This document shows, one piece after another, positions 42,642-42,732 of a stretch of DNA of 64,000 nucleotides. The notes under the pieces were generated by a model. It made no database searches. It saw only the letters and a list, made by a program, of their open reading frames with translations, and had not been told where the DNA came from. Each line of letters begins with the position of its first letter. Within the stretch, counting starts at the first letter, position 1. The stretch is from positions 186,001 to 250,000 of the forward strand of contig NZ_QWGA01000008.1 of assembly GCF_003576245.1 (NCBI RefSeq). The letters are read 5' to 3'. The position numbers were made by a program, and so were the translations under genes. Source of the DNA: Henriciella algicola (GTDB taxonomy: Bacteria; Pseudomonadota; Alphaproteobacteria; Caulobacterales; Hyphomonadaceae).

Positions 42642-42732
42642 TGGACGGCCGCCGGGGAATTGAACCCCATTACCCTGCCACTCCACTTTGGATAGGGACC
42701 GCGTTTGCAGCGCGGCATGGAGTCTGTGGCCG
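42642..42732 (-). tRNA. tRNA-Cys(GCA)-like element, non-canonical
   Basis: Read on the minus strand: acceptor CGGCCAC / GCGGCCG (six pairs, one A-C mismatch), a 10-base segment where a D arm should be, a perfect anticodon arm CCGCG-CTGCAAA-CGCGG with anticodon GCA, a 29-base variable region able to fold (CCCT/AGGG and TCCA/TGGA), a T arm GGGG-TTCAATT-CCCC with consensus GTTCAATTC, discriminator U and an encoded CCA. GCA plus U73 are the cysteine identity elements. The missing D arm and long variable region make a working tRNA doubtful: a degenerate or rearranged tRNA, or a novel tRNA-like RNA. An alternative stem pairs ACTCCA (42717-42722) with TGGAGT (42681-42686). Confidence 0.45.

Follow-up and report, generated by a model that had tools for sequence, protein, structure and literature searches.

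Canonical bacterial tRNA-Tyr is a class II tRNA with a long variable arm, a D-arm hairpin, and a 7-bp acceptor stem with a 5-bp T stem. Other tRNAs, namely, 8/4 and 9/3 tRNAs, allo-tRNAs and the selC* tRNA-Cys, were reportedly presented by Mukai and colleagues in 2017, and all of these are said to have retained an ordinary D-arm. Amino-acid biosynthesis attenuators of the trp, his and phe type have leader peptides; the system reported below resembles them in having, right after a promoter-like motif, a short leader open reading frame (ORF) in which codons for a single amino acid stand in tandem, and differs in that control would fall on a tRNA, accompanied or not by a 125-aa protein. In the portions of PMC11551756 drawn on here, all known bacterial tRNAs are stated to be cloverleaves. 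According to the sections of PMC11555353 considered, retron-Eco7, which depletes tRNA-Tyr, can be overcome by a tRNA-Tyr of phage origin. The words pseudoknot, phage and permuted are absent from the main text of the review PMC7609411, and the "tRNA pseudoknot" in the relevant part of PMC10570016 is a SerRS-bound region, different from the fold reported here, for which no description was found in the titles and abstract openings listed by searches of the open-licence PMC literature.

Here, we describe a 91-nt tRNA-like gene in the window, the whole 64,000-nucleotide stretch of Henriciella algicola DNA that was analyzed. The element is real and is one of a conserved RNA family missed by ARAGORN and Rfam. 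Its Tyr-type relatives share with canonical tRNA-Tyr the anticodon GUA, A73, a variable-region helix and the T loop, as well as G1-C72 in nearly all copies and a mostly encoded CCA, and they sit in phage tRNA arrays that are mostly without an ordinary tRNA-Tyr. Unlike canonical tRNA-Tyr, they have no D-arm hairpin, their 5' D-stem strand and GG lie in the variable arm and produce a pseudoknot, and their acceptor/T-stem division is 8/4 rather than 7/5. The 8/4 acceptor branch (8-bp acceptor, 4-bp T stem) and the long variable arm are shared with 8/4 tRNAs and selC*, the latter also in its cysteine identity; however, the element does not have the otherwise ordinary cloverleaf with a D-arm, and it is pseudoknotted, which is not described for those tRNAs in the parts of that literature considered. 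As far as the excerpted text of PMC11551756 goes, D-arm-less mitochondrial tRNAs and the artificial mini HisT likewise have no D hairpin between the acceptor and anticodon arms, whereas the D-stem of the present element is rebuilt from the variable region, not lost, and the element occurs in bacteria and phages. The phage tRNA-Tyr that defeats retron-Eco7 is similarly phage-supplied and offers a reason for an extra tRNA-Tyr, but in the excerpts of PMC11555353 it is aligned with Escherichia coli tRNA-Tyr, and no rewired core is described there.

Architecture of the element in the window

The element is read on the minus strand (42732..42642), with the anticodon GCA, U73 and an encoded CCA, as CGGCCACA-GA-CTCCAT-G-CCGCG-CTGCAAA-CGCGG-T-CCCT...GTGGAG-TGG-C-AGGG-TAAT-GGGG-TTCAATT-CCCC-GGCGGCCG-T-CCA (Table 1). 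All of the parts listed in the initial annotation, which named no strand, i.e., a consensus T arm, a 5-bp anticodon arm, GCA in a CTGCAAA loop, U73, CCA, a 10-base D region and a 29-base variable region, are present on this strand; the acceptor also pairs, as had been noted, but the single mismatch assigned to it does not hold, the stem being better drawn as 8 bp beside a 4-bp T stem, with two mismatches. The D-arm hairpin of the canonical cloverleaf is absent, and a strand of the 10-nt D region pairs with the variable region instead. In canonical terms, the 3' strand of the D-stem (nucleotides 22 to 25) is in place, while the 5' strand and TGG have moved into the variable arm; since the variable-arm helix encloses the D-stem strand, the two helices form a pseudoknot. 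The TGG, invariant in nine aligned sequences, may replace G18-G19. An anticodon stem-loop with U33, a T arm with TTCRATT, an acceptor and N73-CCA give the element the structural features of a tRNA in the wide sense, and GCA with U73 gives it those of a tRNA-Cys. The elements are tRNAs in every respect tested other than core topology. The window copy occupies the same site as that of its relative G020, after a 154-aa gene that itself follows another gene, which in the window we take to be argG.

Table 1 Features of the tRNA-Cys-type element and its neighbor in the window
Feature	Positions	Strand	Basis or remark
Whole pseudoknotted tRNA-Cys-type element, including encoded CCA	42642..42732	-	Model match 109.4 bits (belongs to training set); BLAST homologues
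Acceptor stem 5' strand, 8 nt; A6 and A8 mispaired in window copy	42725..42732	-	
D-stem strand CTCCAT, immediately before the anticodon arm on its 5' side; corresponds to canonical nucleotides 22-25	42717..42722	-	Pairs with 42681-42686; covariation
Anticodon stem-loop CCGCG-CTGCAAA-CGCGG; anticodon GCA at 42706-42708	42699..42715	-	
Variable-arm helix 5' strand CCCT	42694..42697	-	Pairs with 42673-42676
Relocated D-stem strand GTGGAG, within loop of variable-arm helix	42681..42686	-	Covariation
TGG adjoining the moved D-stem strand; may take the place of D-loop G18-G19	42678..42680	-	Role putative
Variable-arm helix 3' strand AGGG	42673..42676	-	
T arm GGGG-TTCAATT-CCCC, 4 bp	42654..42668	-	Alignment, covariation
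Acceptor stem 3' strand	42646..42653	-	Alignment, covariation
Discriminator U73 and encoded CCA	42642..42645	-	Read from sequence
Upstream neighbor gene, 154 aa	43066..43530	-	End of a similar gene also upstream in relative G020

Standard tools did not recover the element. ARAGORN called no tRNAs in the window, and the window element had no Rfam match at the gathering score; a better-scoring conventional tRNA on the same bases, against which the first description was to be checked, was found by neither program. In a permissive Rfam search, tRNA-Sec was the best match (19.2 bits against a gathering score of 47), with others weaker, and this assignment was rejected given the anticodon GCA rather than UCA, the lack of a D hairpin with a 6-bp stem and the score itself. 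More broadly, the Rfam gathering search called none of nine elements in eight loci while yielding 80 other tRNA matches, and ARAGORN recognized none of the 80 phage elements in the first 80 loci among the matches listed. The single-sequence fold energy of the window copy was ordinary (z = -0.5) under a program that scores no pseudoknots, so single-sequence folding lends no support because pseudoknots lie outside the folding model. Among four other copies folded in this way, the minimum-energy fold was the nested part of the proposed structure in one (L404) and differed in three.

Covariation supports a rearranged core

The aligned copies share an 8-bp acceptor, a 5-bp anticodon stem, a 4-bp T stem and a 6-bp helix that joins the D region to the variable region and encloses the anticodon arm. 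This last helix corresponds to what had been put forward as an alternative fold, with ACTCCA pairing with TGGAGT across the anticodon arm, and it proved to be the conserved one, with covariation both in 17 bacterial copies and in 93 Tyr elements. In the bacterial copies, for which kinship among the sequences inflates all five measures used, 96.9% of the cells were paired against 85.4% in shuffled alignments, both sides had changed in 39 cells against 10.4, and the covariation score was 0.376 against 0.155, with none of 500 shuffles as high in each case; the number of pair types, another of the five measures, was unexceptional (78/500 shuffles as high).

The Tyr set consisted of 93 distinct elements, 86 viral (among the matches listed) and 7 bacterial, with the anticodon loop and T arm belonging to the search pattern and TGG to its anchor. 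The D-stem pair D7-X3 held in 92 of the 93 with six standard pair types (maximum in 1,000 shuffles, 60), and D8-X2 held in all 93 with five (maximum, 56). Including D5, the pairs D5, D7 and D8 held in 93, 92 and 93 elements, against shuffle means of 76.7, 47.6 and 44.8. D4 and D6 were uninformative because one side is invariant, and D9, holding in 88 of 93, did not exceed the shuffles. A complete 8-bp acceptor was found in 89 of 93 elements (the window copy itself has 6 of 8 pairs), A73 in all 93 and ACCA in 86. Thus, it is the variable region that contains the 5' half of the D-stem, with TGG after it; its partner, the D-stem 3' strand, stands just before the anticodon stem, and the acceptor and T stem have 8 and 4 bp. 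Support for the variable-arm helix enclosing the relocated strand is less strong: at least four consecutive pairs were present in 88 of 93 elements, compared with ∼65 after shuffling, and the unconstrained register weakens this result. In individual copies, this second variable-region helix is CCCT/AGGG (window), CCTT/AAGG (G022) or GCTGT/ACAGC (G624), with the register set by hand. Homologues with compensatory stem changes, the absence of which would have counted against the element, were therefore found, and a chance origin was ruled out by these homologues and the covariation.

Distribution among bacteria

A DNA search detected the element in 8 of 101 genomes, its own included, the other seven being in the same genus. 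One match (L008) carried the anticodon GUA with A73, and genome G009 held a second copy, also GUA with A73, located 28 nt upstream of its Cys-type copy. A covariance model built from nine copies (R1) gave 14 matches at 70 to 115 bits in 12 of 105 family genomes, 9 of the 14 being training copies; the remaining 23 family matches listed scored 26 to 33 bits, and all nine of those checked with ARAGORN were ordinary tRNAs. Order and class samples added G251, G290 and G624, together with seven weak order-sample matches at 37 to 39 bits that were ordinary tRNAs by ARAGORN. Overall, R1 recovered eight further copies at 70 to 86 bits, with the other matches listed at 39 bits or less, and ARAGORN identified all 16 low-scoring loci submitted to it as ordinary tRNAs. 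The bacterial total was 17 copies in 15 genomes, comprising seven Cys-type, nine Tyr-type and one decayed copy (G124, L062), the last with a Tyr-type RNA that looks decayed (loop CCGCAAA, tail TCA) beside an intact leader and protein. The identity elements were consistent throughout, with GCA and U73 in 7/7 Cys-type copies and GUA and A73 in 9/9 bacterial Tyr-type copies. The initial annotation was right in naming an unusual tRNA-like RNA with cysteine identity.

The bacterial carriers appear to be Alphaproteobacteria, several of them Hyphomonadaceae, and the element is rare, being detected in 2 of 349 genomes of a phylum sample (its own and G017), 2 of 385 of a class sample (its own and G624) and 2 of 62 in the family of G251, samples that overlap. 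BLAST of the window element against plasmids returned no match. The Rfam tRNA model matches the window genome at 42 sites, including an ordinary tRNA-Cys (L035) and an ordinary tRNA-Tyr (L033), and therefore the window element is an extra; the second, normal tRNA-Cys that the first description suggested looking for is as compatible with a supplementary tRNA as with a remnant. Among the 15 carrier genomes, an ordinary tRNA-Tyr match was present in 14 (the miss being G290), and a full-length ordinary tRNA-Cys match was present in 13 (misses, G290 and G251).

Tyr-type elements in phage tRNA arrays

The viral pattern CTGTAAA-N-GRGTGG-N-GRTTCRATTCC was scanned in IMG/VR and occurred in at least 120 stretches. 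A model built from the 17 bacterial copies (R2) supported 119 of the 120 Tyr-pattern phage loci listed (80/80 at 40 to 74 bits and 39/40 at 41 to 68 bits), the exception being L362, whose contig ends inside or just after the T arm. Among the first 80 loci listed, 79 had other tRNAs by ARAGORN; 51 of the elements lay within 30 nt of an ordinary tRNA, and none was overlapped by an ARAGORN tRNA. An ordinary tRNA-Tyr was present in only 3 of these 79 loci, compared with 31 to 58 loci for each other amino acid. BLAST of one phage copy against named phages gave no match.

As controls, we used 102 phage loci from a looser first viral pattern that were negative by both pattern and model, leaving out L262, which carries the element; the looser pattern served solely for these controls and for 11 further model matches. 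In loci with at least 10 ordinary tRNAs, tRNA-Tyr was found in 8/74 element loci and 15/26 controls (Fisher p = 5e-6); with at least 15, in 7/56 and 8/11 (p = 0.0001); and with at least 20, in 6/31 and 6/8 (p = 0.006), all among the matches listed, with the p values to be read as guides because the loci are contig pieces and mutually related. Each other amino acid was served in 26 to 31 of the 31 listed element loci with at least 20 tRNAs. The Tyr-type thus occurs mostly where an ordinary tRNA-Tyr is missing in tRNA-rich phage loci, and it is therefore probably the tRNA-Tyr of most of these phages, although 7 of the 56 listed element loci with at least 15 tRNAs carry an ordinary tRNA-Tyr too. 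One phage contig with a knotted tRNA-Tyr also contains a tRNA-Pyl-like gene called by ARAGORN (anticodon CTA; L323:3631-3702).

Other identities occur in phages as well. The 11 further model matches among the looser-pattern loci comprised seven UCU (Arg), one UAU (Ile) and three GUA copies, as read from the loop, and a scan for non-G34 anticodons yielded 16 stretches (8 UCU, 7 UAU and 1 ACG). By inspection, Arg and Ile versions of the rearranged core exist in phages; position 73 of the Arg-type copies is A, G or U, and six UAU copies score 29 bits with R2, a score also reached by ordinary tRNAs, their helices being judged by eye. Exact-pattern scans of phage contigs for other G34 anticodons, GCA included, returned nothing, and the presumed use of the Cys-type as a tRNA therefore rests on analogy. 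Among named phages, the Tyr type was found at 53 to 66 bits in Pseudomonas phages Lyrsu02 and Rembedalsseter and Rhizobium phage RHph_N3_2. Aeromonas phage AhSzw-1 (Demerecviridae) has two copies (45 and 41 bits), which are tandem, unannotated Arg-type knotted tRNAs, apparently CCU and UCU (L407:1992-2170), and Nitrincola phage 1M3-16 has a weak UCU match (28 bits). No annotation covers the element in the five named-phage regions.

Leader peptides and an adjoining protein in bacteria

An ATG leader of 9 to 12 codons with two or three tandem Tyr codons precedes the RNA in all 10 bacterial Tyr-type loci (G124 included), with 74 to 83 nt between the leader end and the RNA; dinucleotide shuffles of the same stretches produced a tandem-Tyr leader in 3 of 5,000 cases. 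The leaders are MINMTLYYCCCS, MIHMTLYYCCS, MRNRTLHHYYCT, MFNMQLYYCS, MMNSTLFYYCCT, MFNMTLYYCSCS, MFNKPLYYCT, MTLTLYYYS, MNNQLYYLS and MHALIYYYCS. Two of the five Cys-only loci have a leader: MTLMTLYYCCC in G019, where a remnant of the start of a Tyr-type RNA is also present, and MTKPLHTCCCL, without Tyr, in G020, which has the Cys-type RNA only. In G021, likewise Cys-only, the leader looks degenerate, and no leader with tandem Tyr or Cys was found at the G022 and window loci. In 12 of 14 leaders, two from Hellea included, TTGAC stands 36 to 39 nt upstream of the ATG. A terminator scan of two leaders called none on the proper strand, T-run hairpins were seen by eye in the G290 and G251 leaders, and crude folds of six leaders gave no clean alternative switch, that of G290 being identical with the ribosome at the first Tyr codon or at the stop. 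The tandem-Tyr leaders suggest attenuation control of a putative back-up tRNA.

A 120-126-aa protein is encoded downstream in 8 of 10 Tyr-type loci, and within the family, its six close homologues are all at Tyr-type loci, with two distant ones elsewhere. Members share RAICWFK..AHEP...YEDGWQVAA.P (e.g., L052:1601-1975, L057:1693-2058 and L081:1608-1985). The 125-aa protein had no significant match in Pfam, NCBIfam or PHROGs, none among PDB sequences (best E, 0.15), and none in named phages or IMG/VR; its structural model, a confident one (mean pLDDT, 89), had no PDB fold match at E < 0.5. Distant matches were found in 11 plasmids, and distant family members occur in Planctomycetes, Clostridia, and Streptomyces and Vibrio plasmids. 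In 6 of 52 loci without a knotted RNA (L103, L105, L106, L110, L111 and L136), a distant member of this protein family lies within 500 nt of a tRNA cluster, tRNA-Sec gene or tmRNA gene. The parts of the locus also occur separately: leader and RNA without the 125-aa protein in the G624 locus and G009, and leader and protein without an RNA-model match in two Hellea genomes (L095 and L096), where the leader MFMYFFYNT lies ∼120 nt upstream of the 125-aa gene.

Role of the family and fate of the window copy

Taken jointly, these results are best explained by a pseudoknotted tRNA class, of cysteine identity in the window, that would act as tRNA-Tyr in phages and as leader-controlled back-up tRNAs in bacteria, of which the window copy is a descendant, and we regard this explanation as quite likely to be correct. 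The element RNAs would be charged by the host synthetase matching their anticodon and discriminator (TyrRS or CysRS) and would decode in translation, for which the missing tRNA-Tyr of the phage arrays is indirect support. Bacterial copies, probably phage-derived, are found in a few Alphaproteobacteria downstream of a promoter-like motif and of a leader that contains tandem Tyr codons and in many cases Cys codons too, and ribosome stalling on this leader for lack of charged tRNA could raise expression of the element. Such copies would serve as back-up tRNAs, and their altered core may let them evade the agent by which the ordinary tRNA was removed; the benefit might be escape from tRNA-cutting nucleases. 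The window copy would be a Cys-type descendant without a leader, Tyr-type partner or protein gene.

Whether the window copy still works is nearly evenly balanced, and we lean slightly against the idea that it is a non-functional relic of the class, its operon lost and its RNA decaying. Compared with the G017, G019, G020, G021 and G009 copies, its acceptor has the mismatches A6/C67 and A8/G65; the former is shared with G022, which has its own A3/C70 in addition, and the latter is found in the window copy only. The Tyr/Cys-rich leader is missing, the only candidate being MGPCLRRDFR (one Cys), which ends 94 nt upstream; TTGAC does not occur within 400 nt upstream, the nearest distance being 441 nt; the window genome has no match to a Tyr-type copy or the 125-aa gene; and an ordinary tRNA-Cys is available. 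Standing alone, without a leader and with two acceptor mismatches, the copy may therefore be decaying. However, it is identical to the G017 copy at 88 of 91 positions, while alignment of the 91-base flanks gave matches in just 62 of 92 columns downstream and 31 of 117 upstream, and therefore it was under constraint until recently. The anticodon loop, D-stem, V helix, U73 and CCA are also intact, and readthrough from same-strand upstream genes could transcribe it. We hold that the window copy was recently orphaned.

It is unlikely that the bacterial element is a regulatory tRNA mimic in the switch of the leader rather than a tRNA used in translation. The fixed spacing of 74 to 83 nt after the leader stop codon, the conserved ORF that follows at 8 of 10 Tyr-type loci and the Hellea loci, with leader and ORF and no RNA-model match, would suit a mimic, but in the 3-kb locus of G624 the RNA comes after the leader and no such ORF was found, the element shares its fold with members of phage tRNA arrays, and U33, A37, CCA and a matched discriminator and anticodon are retained. 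The origin first suggested for the shape, a decayed or rearranged copy of an ordinary tRNA-Cys, is highly improbable: the anticodon and U73 are common to the ordinary tRNA-Cys of the genome, but the same core recurs with compensatory changes in phage and bacterial Tyr versions and, by inspection, in phage Arg and Ile versions, and the covariation contradicts it.

Returning to a tRNA class with a back-up role in bacteria, a more specific reading is only tentatively advanced, as we consider it somewhat doubtful: phages would have evolved, and some bacteria adopted, a second tRNA topology with a knotted core, run in bacteria as a self-sensing emergency supply. The leader would sense that charged tRNA-Tyr (and tRNA-Cys) had become scarce, for instance through the action of a tRNA-cutting defense or toxin, and look-alike tRNAs would be switched on whose altered core goes unrecognized by the nuclease. 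The retron-Eco7 case, as far as the sections of PMC11555353 considered describe it, supports the plausibility of nuclease escape by analogy, not the case itself.

Implications

The element family would be a natural exception to the bacterial cloverleaf, backed by strong covariation, and hidden because tRNA finders assume a cloverleaf. With it, the demands that the ribosome, EF-Tu, RNase P and the synthetases place on a tRNA core become testable, and it offers a new chassis for genetic-code engineering. Moreover, it suggests a disguise against tRNA-targeting defense, retron-Eco7 depleting tRNA-Tyr in the described portion of PMC11555353. For the phages themselves, the family would account for the apparent tRNA-Tyr gap in many tRNA-rich loci.
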